Shown here one piece after another: positions 11,022-44,238 of a stretch of DNA of 58,729 nucleotides. Where the stretch lies: contig CATLTV010000007.1 in assembly GCA_950059285.1 (NCBI GenBank), forward strand, positions 1-58,729, read 5' to 3'. Position numbers and translations under genes: made by a program. Each line of letters opens with the position of its first letter. The stretch's first letter is position 1. The notes beneath the pieces are model-generated. The model was not told the origin of the DNA, made no database searches, and worked only from the letters and a program-made list of their open reading frames with translations. This DNA is from an uncultured Pseudomonadota bacterium. GTDB lineage: Bacteria; Myxococcota_A; Bradymonadia; Bradymonadales; Bradymonadaceae.

Positions 11022-11698
11022 TGCCTGAATTGTGTTAACCGTTGTAAAATTATGTTGTGCGGACTGGTTTTTGAGTCCGCAAAAGGTGGTTAAAACAGGA
11101 TAAGCCGTCAGGAAACCCAGGCATTTGTTGAATCAAAATCATGCTCAACCATTGCTCATCTGATTTGGGAAGATCTTGTCCTGAGCACACAAGGTTGGCT
11201 TGTGCTTGCCACACATCAGAGCATGTCTCAGCGCTTCGTACGTTCGATGCTCCTGTCAAGTATCGCCCCAGGACAAGCAGAGCTATCCTTCTAGAGCGTG
11301 ATGGAGAAGGAGTTGTTGGAAGAAAAGCGAAGTAGAAGGCGTGGAGTTTAAGGAGCAAAAACCAAGAATAGTAGCCGTGTTACATTCTGTTTTTGCGACA
11401 CCAAAATACGCGGTTTCTACGAGCTTTTCCGAACAACTCTTTCTTTATTACGCTCTAAAAGCCTTCAAAAGCGCCACCACTCTTCACCCTGATGTGAAAC
11501 AGTACATTTTAAACCATTTCACCTGACTGTGCATTGTTCGCACGACAATTCGCTGCACCAGCCTCGCTTTTGTATATTGCTTTATGATACGCTAAATTTG
11601 TAACTACGTTGACCCGTATTAACACGCGATGAGCTCGCAGGTGAGCTCAATGCGGATACACGGTCGAACTCACAGAACGTTATTTATGGAAGTGAGAG
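11022..11698. other. Gene-poor stretch with a small possible ORF and repeat copy A
   Basis: No convincing gene is present. A GTG-initiated frame at 11341-11526 (61 residues, MEFKEQKPRIVAVLHSVFAT at the start) is weakly protein-like and has no good ribosome binding site. It matters because dispersed-repeat copy A begins only 17 nt after it, as other copies follow other small genes. The rest looks AT-rich and non-coding. Confidence 0.4.
11544..11655 (+). repeat. Dispersed repeat, copy A
   Basis: This 112-bp element has two conserved ends: TCGCTGCACCAGCCTCGC near its start and GAGCTCGCAGGTGAGCTC near its end. Copies C and D (116 and 113 bp) are in the other orientation near 43-44 kb. The middle is poorly conserved. 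It ends 43 nt before the Kazal-type lipoprotein gene. Confidence 0.75.
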
Positions 11699-12331
11699 AT
11701 GAGATTTTTAATCGTTCAATTGTCAATGTGCATCATACTATCAGGGTGCACAGAATCTATAGATATGGATGATGAGAAGAAAGAAGGCAATCAACTCGAA
11801 GACGCTGGAGCTGATCTTTCAGAAAACAACGTGGACATGTCACTACAAGATGCTGGTGAACCTACTCTGTGTGATGATGACACGCCATGTCCTGATGGCA
11901 GCTTTTGCGCTCATCATTCTGAGCCATGTCAAGGTGCCGGGGTCTGTCAAGCTGTTCCTCTCGACAATTCAGGGCAATATGAACCTGTATGTGGCTGTGA
12001 TGGCTTGACCTACGGAAACTTACACACAGCTCAGAGTCGAGGCGTTTCGGTCCTTAAAAATGGCTCATGTGAACCTAATTCATTTCAATCCTGTGGTGGT
12101 TTGTACGAAGAGTATTATGGGGGCGCATGTGAAACTGGTAGTACCTGCATCCACTCAGAAGATGACATGTGTGGGTGGTACGATGCTTCTGGACGTTGTG
12201 AGCGTCGACCTGATGTGTGTGGAGATGGAGCTCAACCTGTCTGCGGCTGTGACGAGAAAACATATGTCAACGAATGCCAGGCTCGGTTGATAGGAGCTGG
12301 GATTCTTTCAAGAGCTGCTTGTGACGAATGA
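11699..12331 (+). CDS. Secreted lipoprotein with two Kazal-like domains
   Basis: The 210-residue precursor starts with a short lipoprotein signal (lipobox ending SGC, Cys17), then an acidic linker. Two Cys-rich modules follow. The first (about residues 60-128) contains YEPVCGCDGLTYGN and the second (about 165-208) contains AQPVCGCDEKTYVNECQA, both typical of Kazal serine-protease-inhibitor domains. Between them a six-Cys stretch (SCGGLYEEYYGGAC) is unclassified. A role as an outer-surface protease inhibitor is plausible from the family but unproven. GGAAGTGAGAG lies directly before the ATG. The gene is flanked by dispersed-repeat copies A (upstream) and B (14 nt after the stop), in the same orientation. 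Confidence 0.8.
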   Translation: MRFLIVQLSMCIILSGCTESIDMDDEKKEGNQLEDAGADLSENNVDMSLQDAGEPTLCDDDTPCPDGSFCAHHSEPCQGAGVCQAVPLDNSGQYEPVCGCDGLTYGNLHTAQSRGVSVLKNGSCEPNSFQSCGGLYEEYYGGACETGSTCIHSEDDMCGWYDASGRCERRPDVCGDGAQPVCGCDEKTYVNECQARLIGAGILSRAACDE

Positions 12332-12345
12332 ACAGCAGACTGTGT

Positions 12346-12370
12346 CACAACTCGCTGCATCAGCCTCGTC
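12346..12370 (+). repeat. Dispersed repeat, copy B (partial)
   Basis: Only the first end of the repeat is recognisable (AACTCGCTGCATCAGCCTCG). It lies 14 nt after the Kazal lipoprotein stop codon, in the same orientation as copy A. Confidence 0.6.
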
Positions 12371-12504
12371 TTTACATGAACCAGAAAACACTTGAATGTA
12401 CAAGAACTTAAAAACTAAAATTTGTGTATTTTAAAATGTTAAAAAATTAACGGCATATTTTTTGAATATAATTATTGTCAGATGTTTTAATGAAGGAGGA
12501 AGAC

Positions 12505-12996
12505 ATGTTCAATCTTGCAAAATTAATCCCACTGACGTTGCTTACAATTTTGATGACAGGTTGCTTGAATCAAGAAGTCGATCCAATGGAGTGTTTCCAG
12601 CATTCTCCTGAAGATTGCCTGACCAAAAGCGAACCCAAAACCTGCCACAATGTGCCTATCGAAGGGTGGCTAAGAGTATACAACATTGAGCGAGGATGTA
12701 ACGAGTACTATTCAGGTTCGGGTCAAGCATTTGTCTGTGCTCCCCTTGATTATGACACGTTTTTTACTGCAGGGTTTGGAGAGCAGGTTGGTCAGGCAGT
12801 ATCTCCTGATGGTCGTATTTTTGTCTCACCAACCATAGGTAACGCATGGCACGGATGTGACTACGAAGCGCCTTACGTTGCACCAGACCAGTTACAGAGA
12901 TCTGAAGATAAACCGATGTGCAATCCAAATGATGAGCATCCCAATGATAGATGGCAAAGAATTCAGGAACGAGAACTTGCCGAGGCAGATGAATGA
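12505..12996 (+). CDS. Small secreted lipoprotein
   Basis: The 163-residue precursor starts at 12505, where AAGGAGGAA is 6 nt upstream; an upstream frame start at 12475 has no such support. The signal is MFNLAKLIPLTLLTILMTGC with the lipid-modified Cys at residue 20. The mature part has about six cysteines and no domain I recognise. It is AT-richer than the core genes of the window and sits between the Kazal lipoprotein and a further unknown gene, ending 12 nt before a perfect palindrome. Confidence 0.7.
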   Translation: MFNLAKLIPLTLLTILMTGCLNQEVDPMECFQHSPEDCLTKSEPKTCHNVPIEGWLRVYNIERGCNEYYSGSGQAFVCAPLDYDTFFTAGFGEQVGQAVSPDGRIFVSPTIGNAWHGCDYEAPYVAPDQLQRSEDKPMCNPNDEHPNDRWQRIQERELAEADE

Positions 12997-13008
12997 ATCT
13001 GCTTCAAT

Positions 13009-13084
13009 CATGGTGAAACCATCCTGGATGGTTTCACCATGAACGAATATTTTGATATCAAAATATTTTAATATCAGAATATCT
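13009..13084. terminator. Double palindrome after the small lipoprotein gene
   Basis: A perfect 33-bp palindrome (13009-13041, 16-bp arms around one T, reading CATGGTGAAACCATCC) is followed by an AT-rich palindrome of 22 bp at 13046-13067 centred on GATATC, with further AATATC sequence to 13084. An almost identical double unit lies at 13992-14067, on the other side of the next gene. Confidence 0.8.
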
Positions 13085-13143
13085 CATCTCTTTTTATGTG
13101 GTGTCCTGGCTTTTTGGCAGCTATATACTCGCTTTACATTGAC

Positions 13144-13827
13144 ATGAACCATTATCATATTCTTCTCTCACCATCAGCGCCCAACACAGCTCATCTTCAA
13201 GATCATCAAGGTGAGCTTGTTGCATTCATTACTTATGATCCTCAGTCTGAACATTTTGACCTGGTTCAATCCGAAGCTCTTCCTGCTCATTTTGTCGAGC
13301 GTTTTTTAGCTCAAGCCCGCAAACTGCTCACACCTCGCCATGCTACTGCTTGTGGACACACGTGGTTTTTACTCGACCGACGAGAACATTGTGTGACAGA
13401 GCATGGTTATCCTGCGGTCAATGAAGACACGGTTTGGATGGATGAAAACTTCTTCCATGTCCTCTACTCCTGGTTGAAGTGGATTCCTACATGGTGCCCT
13501 CGTTCAGAATGCTCAAGGCAAGGTTTTGAATTTTATAATGCTGTAGAGTTGCGTCACGATGGTGTGTCATCTTCTCTTTCCATGCTGATGGCGTTTCGTC
13601 AGCTGCTTACTCTTGCCCCTGAACACGTTGAAATGTCTGGAGGTTGGAGACTTCCCTGGCAAGAAGATGTACAGGGCAATGCGCTGTCTTATTCTGAGGA
13701 AGGTTATCCTGGAAAACTTTCTTTCAACGCATCACAAGCACTTCAAACGCTGGAACAATTAATTGATTTAAATCAAAGGCTTGAATCCTCTTCAAAGCAT
13801 CATTACATCCTACATATTGGCGTGTGA
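13144..13827 (+). CDS. Hypothetical protein
   Basis: This 227-residue protein is not recognised. The frame is open from an ATG at 13096, but neither it nor the ATG at 13144 (MNHYHILLSPSAPN) has a clear ribosome binding site; the second is preferred because the upstream 16 codons look unlike the rest. The protein is soluble, Trp- and His-rich, without signal peptide. Codon use is AT-richer than the flanking DUF1592 pair. It is enclosed by two copies of the same double palindrome, and an attC-like repeat relative follows its stop by about 21 nt. Confidence 0.55.
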   Translation: MNHYHILLSPSAPNTAHLQDHQGELVAFITYDPQSEHFDLVQSEALPAHFVERFLAQARKLLTPRHATACGHTWFLLDRREHCVTEHGYPAVNEDTVWMDENFFHVLYSWLKWIPTWCPRSECSRQGFEFYNAVELRHDGVSSSLSMLMAFRQLLTLAPEHVEMSGGWRLPWQEDVQGNALSYSEEGYPGKLSFNASQALQTLEQLIDLNQRLESSSKHHYILHIGV

Positions 13828-13848
13828 ACCCTCACGTAATTATACCCC

Positions 13849-13970
13849 CTTCAATACACAACAATTATGCTTTCACACCTTCGGAACCTCGCACTCTCGC
13901 TTGTAAGCATTCAATTGTGAGGCTGTCGACATTCTTGCGAAGTTGACGCTCAAAAGTACGTTGTTACTCC
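13849..13970 (+). repeat. Divergent dispersed-repeat relative (copy E)
   Basis: The start, ACAATTATGCTTTCACACC and then CCTCGC, aligns with gaps to the start of copy A (ACAATTCGCTGCACC, CCTCGC). The end contains GTTGTTACTC, partly complementary to CACAACAAT at the start. It lies 21 nt after the unknown gene, in gene orientation. Relationship to copies A, C and D is tentative. Confidence 0.35.
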
Positions 13971-13991
13971 TGACTTTCCTGAAGCTTCAAC

Positions 13992-14067
13992 CATGGTGAA
14001 ACCATCCAGGATGGTTTCACCATGAACAGATATTTTGATATCAGAATATTAAAATATCTGTTCATGG
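13992..14067. terminator. Overlapping double palindrome after the 13.1-kb gene
   Basis: A perfect 33-bp palindrome (13992-14024) differs from that at 13009-13041 only at its central base. It overlaps a second hairpin, 14020-14067, with 17-bp perfect outer arms (CCATGAACAGATATTTT) and an AT-rich interior. The two stems share CCATG, so they cannot both form fully. Confidence 0.75.
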
Positions 14068-14194
14068 CGCGGGTCTGGTGGCTTGTTAAAATGTCATGTA
14101 TGTGCGACAATCTTCGGGTGCGTTTGAGGTTAAAAATCCTTGGTGATGTTTGGACTTGATGTATCTTCTGGATGTTGTGACAGGGAGAGGTGGT

Positions 14195-15958
14195 GTGAGC
14201 AAGATGAAAGGGTGGTCGCGACATCAGCCATGGTGTGTGGTGTGTGCGATGATGTTTCTTGGGGCCTGTCAGGGTGAGCTTGACCACCAGGTGTTTCAGT
14301 CCGGAGATGTTGAGGTCACAGCACAGGATGAGAGCCCAAAAAATGTGGACTCGGGCGAGGTTTCTCTGGACATGTCGACCATACCAGGAGTTGATTCTGG
14401 TGCCATGAACGATGTGCTTCCCCCCGTTTATGGCAAGAGTACGGTGAGGTTATTGACCCCTGTACAGTATCGAAACGCCATCTCCCAGCTCTCTCCCATG
14501 GAGTTGACCCAGCGCGAGGTGGGCTCTTACAACTCATCACTTGCAGCGGCCAGCGGAGGCCTGAATGGCGGGCTCGTGGATGCTTATTCGGAGGAAGCAT
14601 TTTCCATCGCCTCGCAGTGGTTTTCCACCCCTGAATCCACGCTCGCCCTGATGACATGCCTGCCCGAGCGTGCCGATGACACCTGCACTCAGGACTTTCT
14701 GCGCCGCTTTGGTCGACTCGTCTGGCGACGCCCTCTGACAGACAATGAGGTGGCGCGTTATGTGGCGCTCTCCGTGGATGTCTCAAACCGTTTGCAAAGC
14801 CCCATCAAGGGTGTGGAGTATGCGGTCGCGGGCATGTTGCAGTCACCCTACTTTATCTACCGTGTGGAGCTTGGCACACCATCAGACACACACCGTACAT
14901 TTGACGCCTACGAAATCGCCACGCGTTTGAGCTTCTTGCTCACCAACTCGCCCCCATCATCAGCCCTCCTGGACGCTGCTCGCGATGGAGAACTTGAGGA
15001 TCGTGAAGGTCTTGAGCGCCACGCGCGTGCGCTGCTCAATAGCCCCGCAGGAGAGCGCGGTCTACGCGCGCTCGGTGTGGAACTCTATGGCCTTGATGCA
15101 ATCGTCGAGGTTGAAAAGGACGCATCCCTCTTCCCTGAATTCTCCGAGGAGCTGGCCGAGGCGATGAGAGAGCAGGTCGCGCTCACGTTTGTGGACCATG
15201 TGGTCAGCGGCCGGGATTATCGCGAGCTGTTTAACCGCCGCGAGGTGTTTATGCATCCTGTGCTTGCGGAGCTTTATGGTGTGCATGACCTCGCTGAACA
15301 GGAGCAGGGCTGGCAACTGTATACATTCCCCGAGGAATTAAACCGTCAGGGCATCCTGTCACTGGCTGGCATCATGGCCTCACACTCGGGTATCGCCAAC
15401 ACCTCGCCCACCACACGCGGTTTCTTTGTACGCACCGATGTACTGTGTGATGTGGTGCCTCCTCCTGGACCCAATGTGGACACCACGCTCCCAATTCCCG
15501 AGGAAGGTGAAGTACTTACGAACCGAGAATTGTTAGGTCGTCATGTCACCGAGCCAAGCTGTTCGGGGTGCCATTCATTCATGGATCCGCTCGGGTTCCC
15601 GCTTGAAAACTACGATCCCATCGGTCGTTATCGTACGCATCAGAACATGTTACCCATCGATGCCAGCGGTAGCCTTGATGGCACCGATTTTGAGACAGCA
15701 CAGGGCTTCAGCGAGGCGCTCGCCGCCAATCCAAAGCTCATCCCTTGCCTCAATAAAAAGCTCTTCGCATATAGCTTTGCCCGCCTGATGCAGCCCGAAG
15801 ATGAGGCGCTCATGCAGGATCTTAACGCATCCTTTGAGGGCTCAAGTTATGACCTTCGTGAGGCGCTCGTGACACTCGCTGTCAGTGATGCGATGCGTTT
15901 TGCCGCGCAGGATGACGATGAGGATCACCAGGAAGATTCGGAAGGAGGACAGCCATGA
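14195..15958 (+). CDS. DUF1592/DUF1588/DUF1585-type lipoprotein
   Basis: The protein (about 587 residues) starts best at the GTG at 14195, with GGGAGAGG about 5-7 nt upstream; an ATG at 14204 is an alternative. A lipoprotein signal ends in LGAC. The conserved region has LTPVQYRNAISQL (DUF1587-like), FGRLVWRRPLTDNEVARY (DUF1595), a DUF1592 core (ATRLSFLLTNSPP), a DUF1588 segment with EPSCSGCHSFMDPLGFPLEN, which holds a CxxCH haem-binding motif, and a C-terminal DUF1585. These proteins are common in planctomycetes and myxobacteria, usually paired with a DUF1552 gene, and may act in envelope redox or polymer breakdown; the substrate is unknown. The stop overlaps the next ATG as ATGA. Confidence 0.9.
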   Translation: MSKMKGWSRHQPWCVVCAMMFLGACQGELDHQVFQSGDVEVTAQDESPKNVDSGEVSLDMSTIPGVDSGAMNDVLPPVYGKSTVRLLTPVQYRNAISQLSPMELTQREVGSYNSSLAAASGGLNGGLVDAYSEEAFSIASQWFSTPESTLALMTCLPERADDTCTQDFLRRFGRLVWRRPLTDNEVARYVALSVDVSNRLQSPIKGVEYAVAGMLQSPYFIYRVELGTPSDTHRTFDAYEIATRLSFLLTNSPPSSALLDAARDGELEDREGLERHARALLNSPAGERGLRALGVELYGLDAIVEVEKDASLFPEFSEELAEAMREQVALTFVDHVVSGRDYRELFNRREVFMHPVLAELYGVHDLAEQEQGWQLYTFPEELNRQGILSLAGIMASHSGIANTSPTTRGFFVRTDVLCDVVPPPGPNVDTTLPIPEEGEVLTNRELLGRHVTEPSCSGCHSFMDPLGFPLENYDPIGRYRTHQNMLPIDASGSLDGTDFETAQGFSEALAANPKLIPCLNKKLFAYSFARLMQPEDEALMQDLNASFEGSSYDLREALVTLAVSDAMRFAAQDDDEDHQEDSEGGQP

Positions 15959-17370
15959 AACGTCGTACTTTTTTGAGAGGCAGCCTTGGTGCTGGAATTG
16001 TTGCAAGCCTTGGCCTCCCCGTCTTCGAGGCGATGCTCAACAGCCACGGGACTGCGTTTGCCGATGGCACGCCCTTTCCAAAACGCTTTGTGGTGTGGTT
16101 CTGGGGCAATGGTAATCACCCCGAGGAGTGGGCGCCATCAGCAGCAGGCGAGGGGTGGCAAGCCACGGGAATGCTGGAGGGCCTGAGCGGACTTGAGCCT
16201 TATATTAACATTGTGACAGGCACCACGCTCCCCACCAACACCGACCAGGGGCTGCCCGAAACCAGAAACCCCCACGTCGAGGGCGCCGTCGGCATTTTGA
16301 CGGGGGGTCGTCCCCTGATGCACGAGTCCTTTGATGGCAGCGGCGGAGACTGGAACTTCATGACCGCGCCCGAGCCATCAATCGATGTGCTCGTCGCCAA
16401 TGAGATCGGTGGAGGTACGCAGCACAAGCTCCCGACCACGGCAGTCACACAGCTTCACGGCGTCGCAAGTGGCAAGCCTGGCACTGCCGTACGTTACATC
16501 TCACACAATGGCCCGTACAACATCAACGCCCCGACCAATACACCGCACGAGCTCTTTGACACGCTCTTTGGTGGAGGGATTCCATCCTTTAAACCTGATG
16601 GCCCCACGCCTGAGGCGCTCGCGCGCGCCAGCGTCCTCGACACCGTGCGCGCCGATGCCCACGCCCTCAAGTCCCGTCTTGGCTCCACCGACCGCGCTCG
16701 TCTGGATCAACACCTCACGGGGATTCGCGAGCTGGAGCTCAGGCTGCGCGCCACGCCCATGGCTCCGCCTGTGGGAGGTTCCTGCGCGCAGATGATGCGC
16801 CCAGAAACGGTCGAGTCCTACAGGCAACGTGCGCAGCTCTTTGCGGATGTGGTCAGCATGGCCTTTGCGTGTGACCTGTCACGCGTCGCCACCATCGAGT
16901 TTTCAAGCCCTGCATCGCATGTGGCGTATCCCGATGTGCACGAGGGGCCGCTTGAAATTGGTGGCTCCGCACACTCCTTCCATGAATACCAGCACCTTGC
17001 CGGGAGAGATGAACCTGTCAGAGAGGCTCTCAAGTATTTTGTCTCCACCTATGGTGACTTTGTACGCACCATGCAGGCGATGCCCGAGGGTGATGGCTCA
17101 TTGCTTGATCAGGCGTGCGTGCTTGGTACATCGGAGCTCTCCACAGGCGAGAACCATGGCTTCCGTAATTACCCCGTGTTGATATCGGGAAGAGCTGGAG
17201 GCACGCTCAAATATCCTGGCGTGCATATCCAGAAATCCTCCGATGTCCCCGCCACCCAGATCATCTACACCTGCTTGCGTGCCATGGGCGTCCAGAGCAC
17301 CGAGTGGGGCACGGACCTGTTCAGAGTCACCGAGCCCATCAGCGAGATCACAGGTCCCGAGTTCTCCTGA
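15955..17370 (+). CDS. DUF1552 secreted protein
   Basis: The 471-residue protein has a Tat-type signal (MKRRTFLRGSLGAG, with twin Arg) and matches DUF1552 through segments such as KRFVVWFWGNGNHPEEW, ETRNPHVEGAVGILTG, and near the end VLGTSELSTGENHGF. DUF1552 proteins are distantly related to the DUF1501/alkaline-phosphatase-like fold and are nearly always encoded beside a DUF1592/DUF1588 protein, as here with a 4-nt overlap. The two products are probably exported and work together, but no reaction has been defined for the family. GGAGGA precedes the ATG. A terminator-like palindrome follows 54 nt after the stop. Confidence 0.9.
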   Translation: MKRRTFLRGSLGAGIVASLGLPVFEAMLNSHGTAFADGTPFPKRFVVWFWGNGNHPEEWAPSAAGEGWQATGMLEGLSGLEPYINIVTGTTLPTNTDQGLPETRNPHVEGAVGILTGGRPLMHESFDGSGGDWNFMTAPEPSIDVLVANEIGGGTQHKLPTTAVTQLHGVASGKPGTAVRYISHNGPYNINAPTNTPHELFDTLFGGGIPSFKPDGPTPEALARASVLDTVRADAHALKSRLGSTDRARLDQHLTGIRELELRLRATPMAPPVGGSCAQMMRPETVESYRQRAQLFADVVSMAFACDLSRVATIEFSSPASHVAYPDVHEGPLEIGGSAHSFHEYQHLAGRDEPVREALKYFVSTYGDFVRTMQAMPEGDGSLLDQACVLGTSELSTGENHGFRNYPVLISGRAGGTLKYPGVHIQKSSDVPATQIIYTCLRAMGVQSTEWGTDLFRVTEPISEITGPEFS

Positions 17371-17424
17371 CATGGAGATACCTATCATGTGATAAGTATT
17401 TGTTATGATTGATTAATTTCAACG

Positions 17425-17487
17425 AAAAGAGGGTAGATATATTGATATTAAAATATTTTAATATCAATATATCTACCCTCTTTTTTT
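17425..17487. terminator. Perfect 60-bp palindrome followed by T-run
   Basis: The arms are 30 bp (17425-17484) with no loop, beginning AAAAGAGGGTAGATATATTG. The second arm continues into seven T residues, as in a rho-independent terminator of the DUF1552 gene. The AT core is of the shared GATAT type. Confidence 0.85.
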
Positions 17488-17652
17488 GTGTGGTCCAATA
17501 AGCGAGCGTGAGACAGGCCAACGCTCACCGCCATCTCTTGACGTGAGTTGGCCCGCTGATTATCGTGTCTGGCTTGTACAGGATGGCTTGAATGTGGGGG
17601 GCACAACACCACGCAAGTCTTGCATTCACAGGACAGAACACAAGGAGAGACG

Positions 17653-18951
17653 ATGCGTGGATTTCAAGAGTTGTTTGGCGAGCTTCGCAGCCTCGTGAAT
17701 CAAGAGCAGCCAGATGGCAAAGCCATATGGAAGATCTTGACAACAATGGCCAAAGACTCCCCAGACCGATTCAAGGTGGAGGTTGCAGAGGGATACCTTC
17801 CTGCCTTCATCCCTCGTCTCTCCAGTCCACTTCATGAGTGTCGCTCTTTGGGAGAGTTGGAGGAGGCTTGTGAGATCCTATTGTTACCCGTGTTTATGCT
17901 TTCCCTCTCTGAGCATGAGATCGGAGAAGAGGGCGTTCAGACCCTGGCAGTGTCACCTTATCTGAGTCATCTGACCACGCTTGAACTCAGAAACAATCAG
18001 ATAGGAGATGAGGGAGCCAAAGCGTTGGCTGAATCACCGCATCTGAGCAACCTGACCAAACTTGATCTTGATTCTAATAAGATAGGAGACGAAGGAGCCA
18101 AGGCGTTGGCTCAGTCACCGAATATGAGCAAGCTGACTGCGCTTCTCCTCGATTGTAATGAGATAGGAGAAGAAGGAATCAACGCTTTGGCGAATTCACC
18201 GTATCTCACCAACCTTGCTTACCTTGACTTCTCTGCTCATTTTATAGGAGACGAGGGAGTCAAAGCGTTGGCGGAATCACCGTATCTCACCAACCTGACT
18301 TATCTTGAACTCTCAGAAAATAGAATAGGAGACGAGGGAGCCAAAGCGTTGGCGAATTCACCCTATCTGAGCAACCTGACTTATCTTGAACTCGATTGGA
18401 ATGAGATAGGAAAAGAGGGTGTCATGGTACTGGCTCAGTCACCGAATATGAGCAAGCTGACTGCGCTTTTCCTCTCATACAATGAGATAGGAGAAGAAGG
18501 AGTTAAAGCGCTGGCTGTGTCACCGAATATGAGCAATCTGACCAAGCTTGAACTCTCAGAAAATAGAATAGGAGAAGAAGGAGTTAAAGCGTTGGCGGAA
18601 TCACCCTATCTGAGCAACCTGACTTATCTTGACCTCTCAGATAATAGTATAGGAAAAGAGGGAGTCAAGGCGTTGGTTGATTCACCGTATCTCACCAACC
18701 TGACTGCGCTTCTCCTCGGTTGGAATGAGATAGGGGACGAGGGAGTCAAAGCGTTGGCGAATTCACCGAATATGAGCAAGCTAACGTATCTTAACCTTGA
18801 AGGCAGTAATATAGGAGATGGGGGAGCCAAGGCACTGGCCAATTCGCCTCATCTGACCAGGCTGACTGAGCTTAACCTCTCATACACGAGAATAGGAAAA
18901 GAAGGAATCAAGGCGCTGAATGAGTCACCGTATCTCACCAACCTGGAATAG
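17653..18951 (+). CDS. LRR family protein, paralog 2 (13 repeats)
   Basis: The 432 residues consist of the 80-residue family N-terminal domain (MRGFQELFGELRSLVN onward, containing SPDRFKVEVAEGYLPAFIPRL), 13 repeats of 27 residues and one extra Glu. The repeat pattern is TxLxLxxNxIGxEGxKALAxSPxLSNL. The start at 17653 is set by AAGGAGA 5 nt upstream. The frame also opens at 17620, which is unlikely. It is the first gene of a tandem array of four family members in the same direction. No terminator hairpin is seen between it and paralog 3, only a leader of about 277 bp. Confidence 0.85.
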   Translation: MRGFQELFGELRSLVNQEQPDGKAIWKILTTMAKDSPDRFKVEVAEGYLPAFIPRLSSPLHECRSLGELEEACEILLLPVFMLSLSEHEIGEEGVQTLAVSPYLSHLTTLELRNNQIGDEGAKALAESPHLSNLTKLDLDSNKIGDEGAKALAQSPNMSKLTALLLDCNEIGEEGINALANSPYLTNLAYLDFSAHFIGDEGVKALAESPYLTNLTYLELSENRIGDEGAKALANSPYLSNLTYLELDWNEIGKEGVMVLAQSPNMSKLTALFLSYNEIGEEGVKALAVSPNMSNLTKLELSENRIGEEGVKALAESPYLSNLTYLDLSDNSIGKEGVKALVDSPYLTNLTALLLGWNEIGDEGVKALANSPNMSKLTYLNLEGSNIGDGGAKALANSPHLTRLTELNLSYTRIGKEGIKALNESPYLTNLE

Positions 18952-19228
18952 GCATGCTGTGTGTCCTGTGGTGTAGCTCACCGCACATTATCGTGTTGTG
19001 CGAGAGCCATCCGTTGCTATGCTTCCTTCAGTGAACACACAGGGCTAGAACTCTCCTGACAGGGTGAATTCAGGCGTCGAGTCTTATGAGTACAAGTGAT
19101 TAATTTTGTTGTTTTTTGATGATTGAACTCTGGCGAGATAGTTTGGTTATCACACAAGGTAACTTGAATATTGGTAGCATCACACAATACAATGCAAATC
19201 CTGTAAGTACAGAACATAAGGAGAGACG

Positions 19229-20050
19229 ATGCGTGGATTTCAAGAGTTGTTTGGCGAGCTTCGCAGCCTCGTGAATCAAGAGCAGCCAGATGGCAAAGCG
19301 ATATGGCGCATCCTGGAGGCGATGGCTGAGGAATCACCAGACCGATTCAAGGCGGAGGTCGTCGAGGGATACCTCCCTGCCTTCATCCCTCGCCTCTCCG
19401 GTCCGCTTCATGTGTGTGGGTCTTTGGAAGCGCTGGAGGACGCGTGTGCGATCCTCTCATTGCCTGTGTTTTCTCTCAGGCTTTATGGGCAGAAGCTCAC
19501 ACATAAAGAAGTCCAGGCTCTGGTTCAGTCGCCTCAGCTGAGTTATATTACAAGGCTTGACCTCGAAGGCACTCAGATAGAAGAGGGAGCCAAAGCGTTG
19601 GCGGAATCACCGAACCTGAGCAATCTGACTGAGCTTCACCTCCACGTGAATCAGATAAGAGACGAGGGAGCCAAAGCGTTGGCGAATTCACCTCATCTGA
19701 GCAACCTCACCTCGCTTCACCTCTCTGATAATGAGATAGGAGAAGAGGGAGCCAAGGCGTTGGCGAATTCACCTCATTTGAGTCACCTGACTACGCTTGA
19801 ACTCCATAGTAACGAGATAGGAGAAGAGGGAGCCAAAGCGTTGGCCGCGTCACCGAACCTGAGCAACCTGACCACACTTGACCTCTCAAGTAATGAGATA
19901 AGAAACAAAGGAGCCAAAGCGCTGGCAGAGTCGCCACATTTGAGTCACCTGACCACGCTTGACCTCGACTCCAATGGTATAGGAGACGAAGGAGCCAAGG
20001 CGTTGGTAGAGTCACCCTATCTGAGGGGCCTGACTGAGCTTTATGTATAG
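19229..20050 (+). CDS. LRR family protein, paralog 3 (7 repeats)
   Basis: This is the shortest intact member: 273 residues, with the 80-residue N-terminal domain, seven repeats (the second one residue short, 26 instead of 27), and a final TELYV. The first 30 codons are almost identical to those of paralog 2, showing recent duplication or gene conversion. TAAGGAGAG lies just before the ATG. The leader shares GGTTATCACACAAGGT with paralog 5. Confidence 0.85.
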   Translation: MRGFQELFGELRSLVNQEQPDGKAIWRILEAMAEESPDRFKAEVVEGYLPAFIPRLSGPLHVCGSLEALEDACAILSLPVFSLRLYGQKLTHKEVQALVQSPQLSYITRLDLEGTQIEEGAKALAESPNLSNLTELHLHVNQIRDEGAKALANSPHLSNLTSLHLSDNEIGEEGAKALANSPHLSHLTTLELHSNEIGEEGAKALAASPNLSNLTTLDLSSNEIRNKGAKALAESPHLSHLTTLDLDSNGIGDEGAKALVESPYLRGLTELYV

Positions 20051-23577: not shown

Positions 23578-23635
23578 AAAGAAGATGGTAGATATTTCGA
23601 TATCAAAATATTGAAATATCTACCATCTTCTTTTT
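23578..23635. terminator. 21-bp inverted repeat, two-way terminator
   Basis: Perfect arms (23578-23598 and 23613-23633, AAAGAAGATGGTAGATATTTC) enclose a 14-nt AT loop containing GATATC. The right arm is followed by T residues. It separates the convergent LRR paralog 5 and membrane-protein genes, 16 nt from the stop of the latter. Confidence 0.85.
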
Positions 23636-29798: not shown

Positions 29799-29866
29799 TC
29801 ATGCAGGGAAAACAAAGGGGCGACGGCTGCTTAAGCAGCCGTCGCCCCTTTGTTTTCCCTGCATGA
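29799..29866. terminator. Perfect 68-bp palindrome after propeller lipoprotein gene
   Basis: The 34-bp arms have no loop or mismatch and are centred at 29832/29833. It lies 50 nt beyond the minus-strand stop at 29917. It is not AT-cored; the centre is GCTTAAGC. Confidence 0.8.
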
Positions 29867-32779: not shown

Positions 32780-32848
32780 AGACGAGAGCGCGGGAGGTGG
32801 GGGCCAAAAATCGAAGATTTTTGGCCCCCACCTCCCGCGCTCTCGTCT
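32780..32848. terminator. Perfect 33-bp hairpin with 3-nt loop
   Basis: Arms AGACGAGAGCGCGGG and onward enclose GAA, with a GC-rich stem. It lies 21 nt after the minus-strand stop at 32870. A second short hairpin, CTGAAGTTC with a 5-nt loop, follows at 32847-32869. Confidence 0.8.
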
Positions 32849-33504: not shown

Positions 33505-33587
33505 GCATTCAGGTAAACCCCAAAAAAGTATGGGCGAGCGCTTTTAAAAAGCGCTCGCCCATACTTTTTTGGGGTTTACCTGAATGC
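33505..33587. terminator. Perfect 83-bp palindrome, longest in the window
   Basis: The 41-bp arms are perfect with a 1-nt loop (A at 33546). It ends only 3 bp from the minus-strand CAP stop codon at 33591. It begins at GCATTCAGGTAAACC and includes an A-run and T-run inside the arms. Confidence 0.85.
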
Positions 33588-33590
33588 GTT

Positions 33591-35511: not shown

Positions 35512-35573
35512 GACAAAAGCGGGGCGTAATATTTCGATATCGAAATATTCAAATATCACGCCCCGCTTTTGTC
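35512..35573. terminator. 16-bp hairpin with nested AT-core palindrome
   Basis: Outer arms GACAAAAGCGGGGCGT are perfect. Inside is a perfect 22-bp palindrome centred on GATATC, followed by CAAATATC without its left partner, as though part of the left arm had been lost. It lies 29 nt after the DUF1206 stop. GACAAAAGCGG recurs at 57804-57839. Confidence 0.8.
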
Positions 35574-37472: not shown

Positions 37473-37495
37473 TTAAATTTTAAACACATGAACAC

Positions 37496-37557
37496 AAATA
37501 ATGCGATAATTTGAGCCAATATGTTTCAACATATTGACTCAAATTATCGCATTATTT
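37496..37557. terminator. 30-bp hairpin between convergent genes
   Basis: The arms (AAATAATGCGATAATTTGAG and onward) carry a single mismatch and a 2-nt loop. It lies 23 nt after the lipoprotein stop and 19 nt from the stop of the convergent gene, so it may serve both. Confidence 0.8.
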
Positions 37558-37576
37558 CGGTCTCCCTCTGAAGAAC

Positions 37577-37921
37577 CTAGCCCACACGCTCATGAGGATG
37601 ATGTGTATATTGGCAATCCTGACAGAGGTGAATCAGGACCTCATGAGGTTCGAGTCCAAAGTGTTCCTCGATGTAGAGGAGCACAACGTTCATCATCTGG
37701 ACGCGTTTACGAGCGCCACCAAGAAGCTCGTAGCGTGCGACAAGATCGCGCATCTCCACGGTGAGGTCCTGCACAGGATGGCTCTGGTGCTGATGGTCAC
37801 GCAGGTAGTGCTCCATACTACGGTCATGGATGCTGAAGGTATAAAACATACGCCGATGACGGATGACGTGATGCTGGACAAGTTCAACAGGTCGTGGGTT
37901 GTGTGGCAATACGATGGACAT
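37577..37921 (-). CDS. Hypothetical protein
   Basis: The 114-residue protein starts at 37921 (MSIVLPHNPRPVELVQHH), preceded by AAAGGAG. It is rich in His and Arg, without signal or membrane segments, and ends DCQYTHHPHERVG. I do not recognise it. Confidence 0.55.
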   Translation of the reverse strand: MSIVLPHNPRPVELVQHHVIRHRRMFYTFSIHDRSMEHYLRDHQHQSHPVQDLTVEMRDLVARYELLGGARKRVQMMNVVLLYIEEHFGLEPHEVLIHLCQDCQYTHHPHERVG

Positions 37922-38073
37922 TAAAGTCTCCTTTGAGGTGGTACAAATCAGCAACTCTTTCCCCTCAAATTTACCACATGTCCACGCACGAACCAGCGTT
38001 TTGTAACTCGTGATACGATCACTTTATGGGTTTGTATTGGACCTCATCTGGTGCGACGCTCTGGATTTCACAG

Positions 38074-38424
38074 CTACTCCAGCGCCTTTTGAATCTTGTC
38101 ATAAAACTCAGTGTCAGGCTCCTGCACGATTTGAAGGGCGCGATGATAGTCCCTGTGCCACTTGATCGGCAGCATGAGGATGAACGGAGTGGCCACAAAG
38201 GCAAGCAGCGCTGAAGGGAGAAGGAGCATGAGTCCTGTACTAAACTCCTCGGTGAGCAATGAGTATAATACAGCGACCCAGAGGGCGATGCAGCTCACGC
38301 CTCCCAGCACGCAGTAGATCACCTTCAGGCCATATTGTGCCATGTATTCAGGCACATACACGATCTCATCTTGCGCATACTCTGCCGATACAGCGCTCAG
38401 CTCCCTCTTGTGGACACGCTCCAC
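38074..38424 (-). CDS. Small two-helix membrane protein, possibly frameshifted
   Basis: The 116-residue frame has two membrane helices (LKVIYCVLGGVSCIALWVAVLY and LMLLLPSALLAFVATPFILML) and charged ends. A strong GAAGGAGG plus ATG at 38473 begins a short frame (MTIDRWIKPVQEV) that stops early, while in the adjoining frame KKYDDGVERVHKREL leads directly into this protein. A one-base change near 38440 would join them. The gene may be broken or contain a sequencing error. Function is unknown. Confidence 0.5.
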   Translation of the reverse strand: MERVHKRELSAVSAEYAQDEIVYVPEYMAQYGLKVIYCVLGGVSCIALWVAVLYSLLTEEFSTGLMLLLPSALLAFVATPFILMLPIKWHRDYHRALQIVQEPDTEFYDKIQKALE

Positions 38425-38665
38425 GCCGTCGTCATACTTCTTGAACTGGCTTGATCCAACGATCGATTGTCATGATGCCTCCTTCATGCAAGGCCCGCTC
38501 TGGCAGGCTCGTGGGCGTCAGTGAATGACTCAACATGAATCAAGTTAGATACAAGAACACTTCTATTCCATGTCAAAATTCGAACAAAATCGTTCGTTTT
38601 AAACAAATGTTTTGGGTTATATTCTGGTGATCACCATCAGATTTTCGTTTTTCTACACAAGCACT

Positions 38666-39031
38666 TCAACCGCTGTAAGAGCAAAGCAAATTAGTGAACA
38701 TCCTCTGATCTCGATAGGGTTTGACGACATGAATCATCCAGTATGTCAAACCTACCACGCCAAATGAGGAAAGGATGATGCCTGCACCTCCCAAAAACAT
38801 CCCAGCAAACCCTTCAAGCAACAACATCAGGACCCATAAGGCCTTGATCAAGATGCTTATATCCTGATGTCTGCCCACATGAAGAAGCCATCCCAGGTTG
38901 ATGAGCAAGCGGGTTGTGTATACACCAAGAATAAGCACCATACCTGAATCTTTGTCACCGCTACAAAAAGCAAACATGCCCACCAGAGGTATACATGTCA
39001 ACACGCCAGAAATAATAACTTTTTTCTTCAA
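38666..39031 (-). CDS. Small hypothetical membrane protein
   Basis: The frame of 121 residues begins at a TTG (MKKKVIISGVLTCIPLVG) with no clear ribosome binding site. Three or four hydrophobic segments follow (LILGVYTTRLLINLGWLL, LWVLMLLLEGFAGMFLGG, ILSSFGVVGLTYWMIHVV). The family is not recognised. It lies downstream of the ABC operon in the same direction. Confidence 0.5.
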   Translation of the reverse strand: MKKKVIISGVLTCIPLVGMFAFCSGDKDSGMVLILGVYTTRLLINLGWLLHVGRHQDISILIKALWVLMLLLEGFAGMFLGGAGIILSSFGVVGLTYWMIHVVKPYRDQRMFTNLLCSYSG

Positions 39032-39202
39032 AATTAACCCATTTTTGATGATTGTATAACCTATTTTTGAATATACCTCTTAATAGGATACTATGTCTAT
39101 AATGAATCCCCGCGTGAGTATCAGATGAAGGAGGAGGATAAAGATTCTTGACGTGTTCAATACAGGGGCATGTTGATAGTCCTACGCTATACATATAGGA
39201 GC

Positions 39203-40345
39203 TTACGTCCCGAATAAAATCTTCTCGCTTCGCAACACTCGACACCCCGCCCAGAACATGAGCGCGGCGGTGGCGAGCGTTGCAAGCGAACTCACCAGAA
39301 GTTCAGGGAGCCCAATACCGTTCCCCTTGGCAACCTCCATGAGCGCATATTGATATCCTGTTACAGGCAACCAGGGGAGCAGCCATTTGGCGATGTCGAA
39401 TGTGTCGAGCAGCGTCGGTACGAAGGCTATGCTTGTCAAGAAGCTCATGTACATTTGGGCTTCCTTTAGAGACTTGGTAAGCAGGGCGACGAACGATAGC
39501 ATCGACGCCGACATTGCTACTAGCGGTACACCCAGGAAGAAACCAAAAAGTACGAATGTTGGACCAAGATCGATGGTGAAGCCGATCTCCTCCCATGGAA
39601 CAAGGCTGTAAACTACAGCAAATGAAACAAGAGAGATGAACAGGCATGATAACGAGAATGAGGCGATGGCCGTGACCTTCGCCAGCAGGATCTCGGCCGT
39701 GGTCATGGGATGTGTCAGAAGGAGTGTGAGTGACTTGCGCTCACGCTCACCAACCGTCAGGTCAGTCACCACGCTGGCCGAACTAGCGAAGAGTGTGAGC
39801 AAGAGTATCATCACCATGGTCCTCAGGACGAATCCTCCTTTGGACCTCGGTGTGGCGCTCGATTCTTTTTGAATATCCAATGGCGAGATCACCGTAGGGT
39901 CGATCCCTCGGGCGATCAGTCGGAGTCTGCCTTGTTGTTGAGAATAGTAATTCAGGACAGCATCCAATCTGTACAGTTTGCTTCTGATCGCATCGTTTGA
40001 CTGATCGCCAGCGACTGTCACCATCGCCTGCTCTCCCCGGGCCATTTTCTCCACAAACTTTGGGTCCAGGCGCAGCGTGATCTCTGCCACTTTCTCCGGG
40101 TCATGGCTGTTCTTGATATTTCGCTGTTCAAGGTAAGACACAAGATCAGGGGCGCGCTCCGGCGATTCGATCGTCAGGTACAGTGTCTCTCTTGGTGAGC
40201 TTACATCCGAGACGATCTGGATCAGTGGAAGTGCCGTCAGCACCGGGAGCAGAAGAAAAATGAAAAAACTTCCAAAGATCGTTCGTCGATCGCGACTCAT
40301 GTCGCGCATTTCTTTCCTGTACAGGACTCTGAACTGAGATGTCAT
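39203..40345 (-). CDS. ABC-2 type transporter permease
   Basis: The 380-residue inner-membrane protein has one helix near the start (SFFIFLLLPVLTALPL), a periplasmic domain of about 130 residues (VSYLEQRNIKNSH to SPLDIQK), and five or six helices in the C-terminal half, with the family motif GERERKSLTLLLTHPMTT. This is the layout of NatB/ABC-2 exporters. The first codons overlap the ATPase gene by 4 nt, so the two are translationally coupled. The substrate is unknown; such pairs move drugs, sodium or polymers. Confidence 0.9.
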   Translation of the reverse strand: MTSQFRVLYRKEMRDMSRDRRTIFGSFFIFLLLPVLTALPLIQIVSDVSSPRETLYLTIESPERAPDLVSYLEQRNIKNSHDPEKVAEITLRLDPKFVEKMARGEQAMVTVAGDQSNDAIRSKLYRLDAVLNYYSQQQGRLRLIARGIDPTVISPLDIQKESSATPRSKGGFVLRTMVMILLLTLFASSASVVTDLTVGERERKSLTLLLTHPMTTAEILLAKVTAIASFSLSCLFISLVSFAVVYSLVPWEEIGFTIDLGPTFVLFGFFLGVPLVAMSASMLSFVALLTKSLKEAQMYMSFLTSIAFVPTLLDTFDIAKWLLPWLPVTGYQYALMEVAKGNGIGLPELLVSSLATLATAALMFWAGCRVLRSEKILFGT

Positions 40346-41076
40346 GGTTTCACCTCTTCACGCTCTTGAACTAACGTCAAAAATGCCTCCTCCAGAGAAT
40401 TCTGCTCTGTCATCTCGCATAATTCTTTGGGTGATCCTCTGCCCACGATATCCCCACTGGCCAGGACCAAGGTGTGGTCACACAGCTCTGAAACTTCGTG
40501 CATCACGTGGCTCAGAAACAGGATGCAGTGACCCTCCTGGCTTAATCGACGAAGCAACTTTCGCAATGTTCGAGTGCTCTTGACATCGAGCCCTCGCGTT
40601 GGTTCATCAAGTACGATGTTTTGTGGTCGATGCACGATAGCTTGTCCCAATACCGTCTTCATGCGTTGTCCCTGTGAGAACCCCTTACAACGGCGGTCCG
40701 CGATGTCTTGCATATCGAGTAAGCTGATAATCTCTTTTGTGTTTGCACAAGCCTCCTGTGGGGATAGGCCACTCATCTGACCGAAAAACTCGATGTACTC
40801 TCGGGCGGTGAGCCGTTCGTAGAGACCGCTGCTATCTGGCATCAGTCCGAGGCGCTTGCGCCCTTCATGGAGGTTCTCGCTCATCGAGAGACCATCGACC
40901 AGGACCTTGCCGTGATCGGGGACCATGAGCCCGAGAATGATGCGTAGGCACGTGGTCTTTCCAGCTCCGTTTGGCCCGAGGAGGCCTGTAATCTGGCCAT
41001 CCTGTGCCTGAAAGCTGCATCCGTTCAGGGCTTGCACATCGCGAAACCTCTTCTTGAGTTCATAAACTTCGATCAT
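40342..41076 (-). CDS. ABC transporter ATP-binding protein
   Basis: The 244-residue protein shows Walker A LLGPNGAGKTT, signature FSQGQRMK, Walker B NIVLDEPTRGLD, and the switch His (LSHVMHE). A start at 41076 (MIEVYELKKRF) overlaps the stop of the upstream hydrolase gene. The enzyme powers the permease encoded next. The signature FSQGQ is typical of the NatA/CcmA-type exporters. Confidence 0.92.
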   Translation of the reverse strand: MIEVYELKKRFRDVQALNGCSFQAQDGQITGLLGPNGAGKTTCLRIILGLMVPDHGKVLVDGLSMSENLHEGRKRLGLMPDSSGLYERLTAREYIEFFGQMSGLSPQEACANTKEIISLLDMQDIADRRCKGFSQGQRMKTVLGQAIVHRPQNIVLDEPTRGLDVKSTRTLRKLLRRLSQEGHCILFLSHVMHEVSELCDHTLVLASGDIVGRGSPKELCEMTEQNSLEEAFLTLVQEREEVKP

Positions 41077-42566
41077 GGCGTACCTGGAGTGGGAAGGGAG
41101 GTGGCATTCGAATTCAGGAGGAATCGGTAGCGTCGCTCTGTGGATAAGCATTCGGTCTGGAGCTTCGAACCGTCTGGTTCATCCAAAAACTCTGCCAGAA
41201 TTCTTCCTGCGCAAGTTTGGTATGCCACTCCATGATTGGCTGTTTTGGCGACAAGGTGCGTCGCGTTCTTCATCTCTTTCATCCCAAGTTCGGCCCAGGA
41301 TGGTGGCGTTGCTGGATCAATCTCCCCGGAGAGCAAGAGCGTCGGGATGTCATGATCAGGCGCCTGATAGAACGATTCTGGCACAGGGCGAACCTTCCAG
41401 ATTGGGCAGACCGCATCAAGTGTCTCGATCAGCAGCGCTCCTGACTTCGACTGCTTGTAGCGCTCTCTGGAAGCTGTCGTGAGCCTTGGCCAGTCCTCGG
41501 CGCAGACAACCGCGAAGTACATTCCTGTGGCCAGCGACATGGACGTAAATTGCGTACTTATCATGGTTGCGATCATAGCAAAGTCGCCTTGATTCGCCTT
41601 GTGGATGGCCAGTGGGATCATGGAGCGCGCGATGTTCGTGTACAGTGCCGAGCGCACCACGCTGTCGACTTTTCCCTCAGTGACGACGAATGTCACATCC
41701 TCACCATGGACCGGATGGCGAATGGTCGTGCTCACAGGCTCCTTACGAAGTTTCTCAAGGAGTGTCTCGAGCTCCTGACCGAACTCGGGGAATACATTCT
41801 GACATTTGGTATCCTCGGCACATTCTTTGACCAACTCCTCCAGCGCTATTTGACTTGCGAGCCCTATGGCCACAAGGCTTTGCTGTCGTGGCACAACCCC
41901 ATCGAGCACCATGGTGCGAACGTGTTCGGGGAATTGGCGTGTATACTCCTGAGCGATACGGGTGCCATATGAGGAACCGTAGAGATGAAGAGCACTGTAT
42001 CCCGTGGCCTGACGAATAGCATCGTAGTCAGCTGCCGCCTGTATTGTTCCAAAATGCGAGAGGTCAACAGAGAGTGTCTTCTTGCACTCCTCGGTATCGG
42101 CGATCGCTTTGGCGATCACGTCCAACGTGGGGTCAGAGAGCGTCTGTTCGAGCGTCTCAACCTTGCAGGAGAGCTTGTGTGACCTGCCCGTGCCCCGTTG
42201 ATCCACGAGAATGATGTCCCGGGTTCTGTTTGCTTCCATCAAGGCGGCCACAAAAACCTTCCCCACATCGAGGCCAGATTGGCCTGGCCCACCAGCAAAT
42301 GTCATAATCGCCTCGTCAGGATGGCGGGCTTTGGCAGCTGGAAGGATCGCAAAGTGTACATCGATCGTACCGTCTTGTGGATCTGAAGATATCGGGCGAG
42401 TCACATATCCACATTGGGCTTCATCGCTTAATCCCTCGAGAAAACAAGTCTTCAACTCGATTGTCGTCTCGCGCTTGGAACTTATCTTTCTGGAACAGCC
42501 CATCGCCTGAGTGAGCACAATGATAAAAAGTAGACATGCCAACGCGCTACATTTCATCCTACTCAC
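41073..42566 (-). CDS. Secreted TAP-like alpha/beta hydrolase
   Basis: The 497-residue precursor starts at a GTG at 42566, with AAGGAAG upstream. It has a probable lipoprotein signal (ending AMGC). The fold shows the TAP family pattern: FAGGPGQSG (oxyanion region), DQRGTGRS, the nucleophile elbow LYGSSYGTR, an Asp in SGEIDPATPPS, and a His in ANHGVAYQ. Such enzymes cleave N-terminal residues of peptides or small esters. It is the first gene of a three-gene operon with an ABC exporter, so the peptidase and transporter may act on one substrate. Confidence 0.88.
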   Translation of the reverse strand: MSRMKCSALACLLFIIVLTQAMGCSRKISSKRETTIELKTCFLEGLSDEAQCGYVTRPISSDPQDGTIDVHFAILPAAKARHPDEAIMTFAGGPGQSGLDVGKVFVAALMEANRTRDIILVDQRGTGRSHKLSCKVETLEQTLSDPTLDVIAKAIADTEECKKTLSVDLSHFGTIQAAADYDAIRQATGYSALHLYGSSYGTRIAQEYTRQFPEHVRTMVLDGVVPRQQSLVAIGLASQIALEELVKECAEDTKCQNVFPEFGQELETLLEKLRKEPVSTTIRHPVHGEDVTFVVTEGKVDSVVRSALYTNIARSMIPLAIHKANQGDFAMIATMISTQFTSMSLATGMYFAVVCAEDWPRLTTASRERYKQSKSGALLIETLDAVCPIWKVRPVPESFYQAPDHDIPTLLLSGEIDPATPPSWAELGMKEMKNATHLVAKTANHGVAYQTCAGRILAEFLDEPDGSKLQTECLSTERRYRFLLNSNATSLPTPGTP

Positions 42567-42732
42567 ATCACTTCCTTTTTCTGCATGCTCTCATTCCTCG
42601 TTTCTTTCCCAAACAGCAATTCGACATGAGTGCTGGCTCGTCGTTGAGCCAGTCTCGCCACCTACAGTGGCGTGTTATGATAAAGTACCCACATCATCTT
42701 GTTTTACGCTTCGCACGGGCTTTGATCGGATG

Positions 42733-42924
42733 CTACTCCTGCTCGATGATTGCCGCCGCCTCACCCCTCATTTCATGTGTATAGCACTCGTTTGGATCAC
42801 TGGTCAAATCATCGATCGTGCACGAGACCGCCACGATGTCGAGAGTATGATCGAGAACCACGTCGCCACCGAAAAGACTTGAGTTCGCCGTGAGAGTTGA
42901 TAATTGGAGTTGCCATGGTTTCAT
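42733..42924 (-). CDS. Possible small protein
   Basis: A 63-residue frame (MKPWQLQLSTLTANSSLFGG, then VVLDHTLDIVAVSCTIDDL) reads like coding sequence but lacks a good ribosome binding site. A second frame upstream at 42809-43129 contains MARIAFGLDETMATPI in an overlapping register, so a frameshifted longer gene is possible. Low certainty. Confidence 0.3.
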   Translation of the reverse strand: MKPWQLQLSTLTANSSLFGGDVVLDHTLDIVAVSCTIDDLTSDPNECYTHEMRGEAAAIIEQE

Positions 42925-42994
42925 CTAAACCGAATGCAATGCGAGCCATATTCTCTTCTTGTTTTTTGTGAATATTTCGATTCGGGTGGCGGAA

Positions 42995-43110
42995 CCATTC
43001 TAAGTTCACCTGCGAGCCCCTGTGTCGCGCAAGTCCATATATCGAAGGCACTTTATCCGAGTGTACCACAGCAGCGAGAGGATCGGCGAGGCTGGTGCAG
43101 CGAGTTGTTG
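42995..43110 (-). repeat. Dispersed repeat, copy C
   Basis: This 116-bp element is the reverse orientation of copy A: GTTCACCTGCGAGCCC near 43003 and GGCTGGTGCAGCGAGTTGTT near 43090. It precedes the lipoprotein gene at 43237. Confidence 0.75.
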
Positions 43111-43236
43111 TTCGCCCGCTTCGCTGCACGACGGTGGGTAGGGCAGCTATCTACGCGACTTGTGCGAACCTTGGAAGGTATGTATCTTCTTGATGTGTAT
43201 ATGTTCTTACTTCTCTTTAAATTAAGGAAATATTTG

Positions 43237-44088
43237 ATGTGGGCAACGTCTAATTTGGTAACAAAGATGATAGGTTACAGCGTTCTGGGTGTGTGTGTGC
43301 TGGTGTGGGGCGCGTGTTCCAGTGATTACATTGAGAACGAAGAGGCATCCTCTTGGAGGGTGAGGGAAAATGTTGAGCAAGAACCTTCCATGATGTTCGA
43401 AGAGCAGCCCAAAGAAATGGAGAAAGAGCCCGTCCTCCAGCCTGTGGAGTTGGAAACCTGCGCCGAGCCTTTTTACGTTGGTCCGATTTGGCAACAAGTG
43501 AATCAGGCCAAAGCTCTTCAAGAATCAGAGTGGATCGTGCAACTTGAGACGACCAAACTTCAGTTGCTTACCTCAGCATCCTATAATGAAGAGACGCGAA
43601 GCTATGAGGTAGAAGATTATAGCCAAGAATTCCAAGAGATTGAAGCGCAGTTGCAAGACTATCAATTGCAACTTATTGCGAATAGACCGTATGAAACATA
43701 CGCTCCTGAAGAAACAAAAGACATCATTCTCATTGTCAAGGGGAAGCCTCAGAAGATATTGGAAATGTTGAAGAACTCATGTCATATCGAGGCATTTGAT
43801 TTGACAGGATTTCACTGTGATTGTGCTCCTCAGATGTGCCAGCAAGCTGAATCGTGTCAGCTAGCTTATATGTTCAACAGCTCTGACAATCATATGGCTT
43901 GGCCTCATTTTGAGAGGTCTGCCATCAGTTGTCAGGATGATATATACATGGGGGCAAATCATGCGCTGAGCTATGATAATGATTTAAGAGGAATCACTTG
44001 GACGTTTGGAAGTTCTCCAAGCTATGTCACATCTTGGAATGAAAGCCCCTGCCAGGAAGAGCGTCAACTCGAACACATCAAATACTGA
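43237..44088 (+). CDS. Secreted lipoprotein
   Basis: The 283-residue precursor starts best at 43237 (MWATSNLVTK), with AAGGAAA about 6 nt upstream; an ATG at 43267 is also possible. The signal ends VWGAC. A long Glu-rich linker follows, then a globular part with about eight Cys (CHIEAFDLTGFHCDCAPQMC). Not recognised. Its base composition is lower in GC than the core genes, and it lies between repeat copies C and D. Confidence 0.65.
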   Translation: MWATSNLVTKMIGYSVLGVCVLVWGACSSDYIENEEASSWRVRENVEQEPSMMFEEQPKEMEKEPVLQPVELETCAEPFYVGPIWQQVNQAKALQESEWIVQLETTKLQLLTSASYNEETRSYEVEDYSQEFQEIEAQLQDYQLQLIANRPYETYAPEETKDIILIVKGKPQKILEMLKNSCHIEAFDLTGFHCDCAPQMCQQAESCQLAYMFNSSDNHMAWPHFERSAISCQDDIYMGANHALSYDNDLRGITWTFGSSPSYVTSWNESPCQEERQLEHIKY

Positions 44089-44125
44089 GCTGGTTTTGAG
44101 TGGATGTTCCGATCGATTGGGTGAA

Positions 44126-44238
44126 CCGTATTGAGCTCACCTGCGAGCCCATCGCGTGTTCGCTCGTTTCACCGAAGTTATAGACTTTAGCATACCATAG
44201 ACTTGGAGATCGTGGCGAGTCTGGTGCAGCGAGTTGTT
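44126..44238 (-). repeat. Dispersed repeat, copy D
   Basis: This 113-bp element has the same orientation as copy C: TTGAGCTCACCTGCGAGCCC near 44131 and GAGTCTGGTGCAGCGAGTTG near 44217. In minus-strand sense it begins 65 nt after the stop of the gene at 44304-45017. Confidence 0.75.

Follow-up and report, generated by a model that had tools for sequence, protein, structure and literature searches.

An attC site has its boxes in the order R''-L''-L'-R'; L'' contains a conserved extrahelical G, which is followed after about 7 nt by a second unpaired base (PMC2727003). Clusters of attC without a neighbouring integron integrase are known as CALIN (PMC9024848, PMC8618304). Secondary integration sites for the integrase have also been described (PMC10127599) and, as reported in the citing articles PMC12901181 and PMC11023631, the attG sites of Loot et al. 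2024 are secondary integration sites of the GTT type. The stretch of DNA analysed here (58,729 nt, referred to as the window) is contig C7 of a 6.65 Mb genome assembled in 441 contigs.

In a preliminary description of the window, five copies of a repeat (A to E) were guessed to be attC sites of integron cassettes, and searches with covariance models and for an integrase were proposed. Both searches were positive and the guess proved right. Copies A, C and D lie where they had been placed and have both ends in common. Allowing up to 6 mismatches, the motif ACAACTCGCTGCACCAG[ACT]CTCGC is confined to A, B, C and D within the window. A covariance model was built without the window copies, from 16 copies of other contigs that were aligned and whose structure was obtained with RNAalifold; in the window it matched exactly A, C and D (E-values of 1e-19 to 1e-27, from a shortened calibration), with 121 bits for D, 93 for A and 86 for C. 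As for the two supposed partial relatives, B was retained in its 5' half only (12342..12369, plus strand; 2 mismatches in the 23-nt motif, 7.5 bits), the 3' half not being recognisable, and E was rejected as an attC, since it shares neither end and unfiltered scoring yielded nothing above 0.5 bits at 13849. The reported spacing behind genes holds for A (13 nt), for B (behind the Kazal gene) and for D (about 61-66 nt). AT-richness was confirmed, with a G+C content of 0.43-0.47 in the cassette stretches versus 0.51 in the window. An Rfam search of the window returned nothing, and no similar DNA was found in plasmids. A 16-nt motif of the 5' end recurs, exact or nearly so, on other contigs, with clusters on C232, C221, C141, C242, C247, C330 and C9.

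Genome-wide, the covariance model gave 41 matches. The complementary inner box that had been thought missing is present: GCT-G-CACC pairs with GGTG-AGC, leaving one extrahelical base, and the pairing shows compensatory changes. The general forms of the paired boxes are GCT-G-(C/A)ACC (L'') and GGT(G/T)-AGC (L'), and in 6 of the 16 sequences one C-G pair of the L stem has become A-T, both sides switching jointly. L'' has an unpaired G and, 7 nt on, another base is left unpaired; these correspond to the extrahelical bases of attC as given in PMC2727003. Complementary L''/L' boxes with extrahelical bases on the R''-L'' arm are present in D, C and A, with one unpaired stem position in C. The L boxes reach 27/27 in D and A and 25/27 in C, and agreement with the R consensus of the genome (RYYYAAC / GTTRRRY type) is 12/12 in D, 11/12 in C and 8/12 in A, where the boxes are degenerate. 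The folding energy of the whole structure in attC strands was no better than that of shuffles. A local 3' hairpin (GGGCTC-GCAGGT-GAGCTC) was also considered as a conserved fold and discarded, as its covariation did not go beyond shuffles. The attC of arrays have middle sequences of two types (e.g. L037:71-193 and L037:991-1115), both with a TGRTACACT-like stretch.

The earlier remark that no integrase was evident does not extend to the genome, which encodes an integron integrase on contig C232, outside the window contig (C232:3264-4199; 405 bits versus a TIGR02249 cut-off of 265). This protein is full-length, its alignment with V. cholerae IntI (2A3V, E 2e-74) running from one end to the other, and is the one strong integron integrase of the genome. 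Its best matches share about 50% identity with it and are spread over many phyla. Past an attI-like junction, three attC follow divergently from the integrase gene, which is the usual layout, and integrase gene, attI and cassettes adjoin one another as in an integron. The attI junction reads AAGAATGTG↓TT (the arrow marks the junction), and within the C232 array each attC 3' end matches the next R'' over 11-12 bases; the C230-odd array stops at the edge of a contig. Among the relatives compared, which belong to other genera, an integrase above the cut-off was found in 0 of 20 members of the same family and in seven other genomes of the order, class and phylum.

The complete attC D (R''-L''-L'-R'; 44120..44242, minus strand) closes cassette D, which extends over 44126..45044 on the minus strand, starting with TTCTGCCGC and ending at the crossover G of its attC, and contains a gene for a protein of 237 aa with no family match (44304..45017, minus strand). 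A cassette opens with a sequence that is reverse-complementary to the R'' box of the same cassette. In cassette D, the start G↓TTCTGCCGC at 45045, 28 nt ahead of the start codon of the gene, agrees with the reverse complement of D's own R'' in 10/10 bases; the agreement is partial in C and A-B. Directly behind it lies cassette C (42995..44125, minus strand), with a complete attC of the second middle-sequence type (42989..43113, minus strand) and a gene for a lipoprotein-like protein of 273 aa (43267..44088, plus strand), opposite to the attC orientation. The 3' end of D, GTTCACCC, fits the R'' of C (GTTCGCCC) given an assumed duplication of AAC in C, the adjacency consisting of 7-8 matching bases plus this duplication. 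By these end matches, the minus-strand stretch 45044..42995 consists of two neighbouring cassettes, bounded by D and C. CALIN comprise at least two close attC with no nearby integrase; D and C are 1.1 kb apart, and the 58.7 kb contig contains no integrase gene. The pair is adjoined by a gene (45250-48090) whose 946-aa product is a helicase containing DUF3427 and, at the N-terminus, a PLD-like domain.

On the plus strand, attC A (11540..11661), with intact L boxes, follows a 61-aa ORF that is a possible cassette gene (11341..11526); no start was located for the cassette that A itself closes. The 3' end of A agrees in register with the R'' of B in 8/11 positions and, therefore, A and B most likely bound an older, decayed cassette (11656..12369, plus strand) carrying the gene for a Kazal-domain lipoprotein of 210 aa (11699..12331, plus strand; PF00050, E 1.4e-7). 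What stands of the cassette array first proposed is the attC-bounded cassettes; instead of a single array there are two small off-platform groups, D-C and A-B, in opposite orientations.

Repeats of other kinds are also found in the window. Ten long perfect palindromes, with arms of 20-41 nt, a loop of 0-3 nt and no mismatch, lie at 5896-5945, 8782-8855, 17425-17484, 29799-29866, 32780-32848, 33505-33587, 45129-45202, 49425-49505, 54592-54634 and 55697-55761, several of them at gene ends. Another 16 were counted over 135 kb of the genome's other contigs, and neither a shuffled sequence nor 51 kb taken from five unrelated genomes contained any; these palindromes may be unusually perfect intrinsic terminators. 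A 75-nt repeat, 91% identical between its copies at 13001-13075 and 13984-14058, flanks a gene for 243 aa (13096-13827), and each copy holds the 34-nt palindrome CATGGTGAAACCATCCWGGATGGTTTCACCATG. A palindromic motif of the type GATATTTTGATATC recurs between genes, at 6825-6863, 8792-8854, 13046-13092, 14029-14059, 17436-17466, 23591-23621, 35528-35558 and 45139-45185. Finally, tandem coding repeats of 81 nt (27 codons) are located at 7211-8725, 17843-18957 and 19578-20039, with further copies, in several paralogous genes whose upstream regions are alike too.

The left half of the insertion site of cassette D, AAGAACGTG (45045..45053, minus strand), resembles the attI sequence AAGAATGTG. The left junctions located off the integron platform read AAGAACGTG↓TT for D in the window, TATATGTG↓TT on C330, CATCGCGTG↓TT on C9 and AATAATATG↓TT on C247, and the flanks beyond them are mutually unrelated. 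Insertion by IntI at a secondary, attG-type site is the best reading of the D junction, and the set of junctions is what would be expected of independent IntI insertions at secondary sites resembling attI. Because the assembly is fragmented, the off-platform status of such groups rests on long contigs such as C7, C9 and C26; on C26 the junction, TAACGG↓TT, is attC-end-like, and no attC was seen ahead of the TT. A fragmented assembly would also fit a genome rearrangement that split the window copies from the main array, in place of one-by-one insertion at secondary sites, and both rearrangement and off-target insertion can give rise to CALIN (PMC8618304). Against this explanation, which we consider improbable, off-platform groups with a found start open at attI-like YGTG↓TT (ATATG↓TT on C247) and not at GG↓TT, the junctions inside the array being of the (C/T)GG↓TT kind, and a common origin is also at odds with the unrelated left flanks. 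By sequence, A, C and D are attC with the order R''-L''-L'-R', a complementary L stem and two extrahelical positions (the R boxes of A being worn), and the genome encodes a full-length IntI beside the attI-like junction and cassettes of C232. As the junctions suggest, this IntI would have recombined the attC of circular cassettes, in folded form, into secondary sites resembling attI. In this way, the D-C pair would have come to lie in the gap between two divergent genes, and the A-B cassette would have arrived earlier. Taking these steps jointly, the window very probably represents attC-bounded cassettes of CALIN type that were inserted off the platform by IntI.

When the genome copies were scored separately for R and L boxes (n=39), 19 had R scores of 11-12/12 and nine of 4-6/12, compared with a random mean of 5.9, and the rest lay in between. 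These nine R-less copies had L scores of 23-27/27 (random mean 11.2); as copies were grouped by R, the low R scores are so by construction, and the undiminished L scores are not. In all, 9-12 of the about 40 copies of the genome are L-only, that is, they have the L boxes and extrahelical bases with R boxes at or near random level. Since their R boxes are at random level, we do not class them as attC. Their middles have diverged, and the TGRTACACT-like stretch is mostly absent from them. One explanation is that they are old attC in neutral decay in which the L boxes survived by chance. The R scores do form a series from 12 down to random, and in three copies (C335:5089, C247:3188 and C242:7215) L and R fade together, as neutral decay predicts. 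However, nine copies with R at random level keep L at 23-27/27. Furthermore, in ten L-only copies (the nine R-less ones minus that of C54, plus the borderline ones of C85 and C358) 70/70 pairs of the L stem are standard, compared with 195/217 in the other 31 copies; three pair positions vary by compensatory change, and the extrahelical base is present in 10/10. A control genome of the same phylum (G057) likewise encodes an integrase and contains, on contig C754 (L258-L260), a canonical chromosomal integron array of at least 19 attC in tandem. When an R-less model was made from the attC of G057, it matched 34 copies, almost all of them on four contigs; among the weak copies that were examined in this one control genome, no class with intact L and lost R was seen. 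For these reasons, we regard neutral decay of the L-only copies as unlikely.

The L-only copies sit between ordinary chromosomal genes, 8/11 of them in sense behind a stop codon, a proportion that is unremarkable given intergenic placement alone. The pair on C8 is notable: one copy lies behind each of two convergent genes, a HAD-type gene and, on the opposite strand, prs, at 22 and 12 nt. Other copies are found behind gmk and beside relA/spoT (C54), behind the genes of an FHA-domain regulator (C35) and a protein kinase (C37), behind two long genes (C9, C31) and behind a gene for 162 aa at a contig end (C358); those of C352 and C85 are antisense, between tandem genes, and that of C47 is upstream of a gene (gene names were read from translations, not from family searches). 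Frequent copies away from small genes had been proposed as evidence against the cassette reading, and this is in part what was found, because the 9-12 R-less copies elsewhere in the genome adjoin ordinary, often large, genes. The mostly sense position behind ordinary genes, one copy per convergent gene on C8, might mean that the L hairpin came first, as a chromosomal 3'-end element from which attC arose by addition of R boxes, and the origin of cassettes is unsolved (PMC12901181). This order of events is quite unlikely, given that the element is absent from integron-less relatives. Three family members that keep the gmk-relA/spoT order have a gap of 70-115 nt with no element, versus about 240 nt here, and in 36 relatives a model of the R-less core gave weak matches only (up to 26.5 bits), which were judged by eye to be chance, mostly in coding sequence. 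Moreover, the canonical attC of G057 have L boxes of this type too, so that attC looks older, and none of the cassette genes was matched to a chromosomal gene that has an L-only copy. Dispersed bulged hairpins in intergenic regions and the inverted pair on C8 would also suit a REP/RAYT or similar hairpin element that merely resembles attC. We give this very little credence, as there is no Y1 transposase (PF01797) in the genome, while control genomes do match, and as cassette-end complementarity and an integron integrase are present. Mobilisation by RAYT/REP was likewise rejected, with 0 PF01797 matches in the genome.

Our best guess is that the L-only copies are attC-derived hairpins that were kept for another reason. 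Off-platform attC age: some lose both box types together, and in about a dozen the L hairpin has stayed and the R crossover boxes have gone, so that recombination is no longer expected. This pattern is seen, and its cause is conjectural. The retained hairpin would serve some other purpose, perhaps at the 3' ends of genes or as a site to which the integrase binds. When the RNA fold of L-only copies was compared with shuffles, most z-scores were near zero, with the exceptions of C54, the C8 pair and C85. Accordingly, stable RNA structure was rejected as the reason for their persistence; that most of them fold no better than shuffles argues against a simple terminator and leaves recognition by a protein, possibly IntI, as a candidate reason. 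Tentatively, and at somewhat less than even confidence, we propose a domestication of attC, in which sites inserted beside chromosomal genes lost their R boxes, the L stem and extrahelical bases came under selection, and a fixed element resulted. Most copies of this element would lie at the 3' ends of genes, and IntI may still bind them. Window copy A, with L at 27/27 and R at 8/12, looks like an intermediate toward the R-less state, and would be a stage of this process. In a small open-access search, we found no literature on attC in which the integrase-recognition half is kept and the crossover half lost. To our knowledge, the L-only copies would be the first case of an attC L half kept without the crossover half, by housekeeping genes. 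If the domestication is true, a recombination site has been turned into a fixed chromosomal element. The L-only class bears on the fate of cassettes after off-target insertion and also on the origin of cassettes and attC, which is a gap in knowledge according to PMC12901181.

Compared with the attC of PMC2727003, the copies described here have in common the box order, both extrahelical positions and the variable terminal structure; the L-only copies differ in having lost the R boxes, without which recombination does not occur, and in keeping only the L stem with both extrahelical positions. As in CALIN, for which off-target insertion is one proposed origin, the cassettes form small attC-bounded groups with no integrase gene near. 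Unlike CALIN, the junctions are readable, with an attI-like site and a start matching its own R'', and a seemingly active integrase is encoded elsewhere in the same genome. As with attG sites, in the form in which the citing articles present them, cassettes appear to have been placed in the genome at GTT-type sites outside attI and attC; the cases here differ in being natural and worn, from an unstudied lineage and read from sequence only, and they are likened to attG by description and not by motif. The window offers a readable natural case of cassettes that would have settled at attI-like secondary sites, in a host family with no other integrase among 20 relatives.
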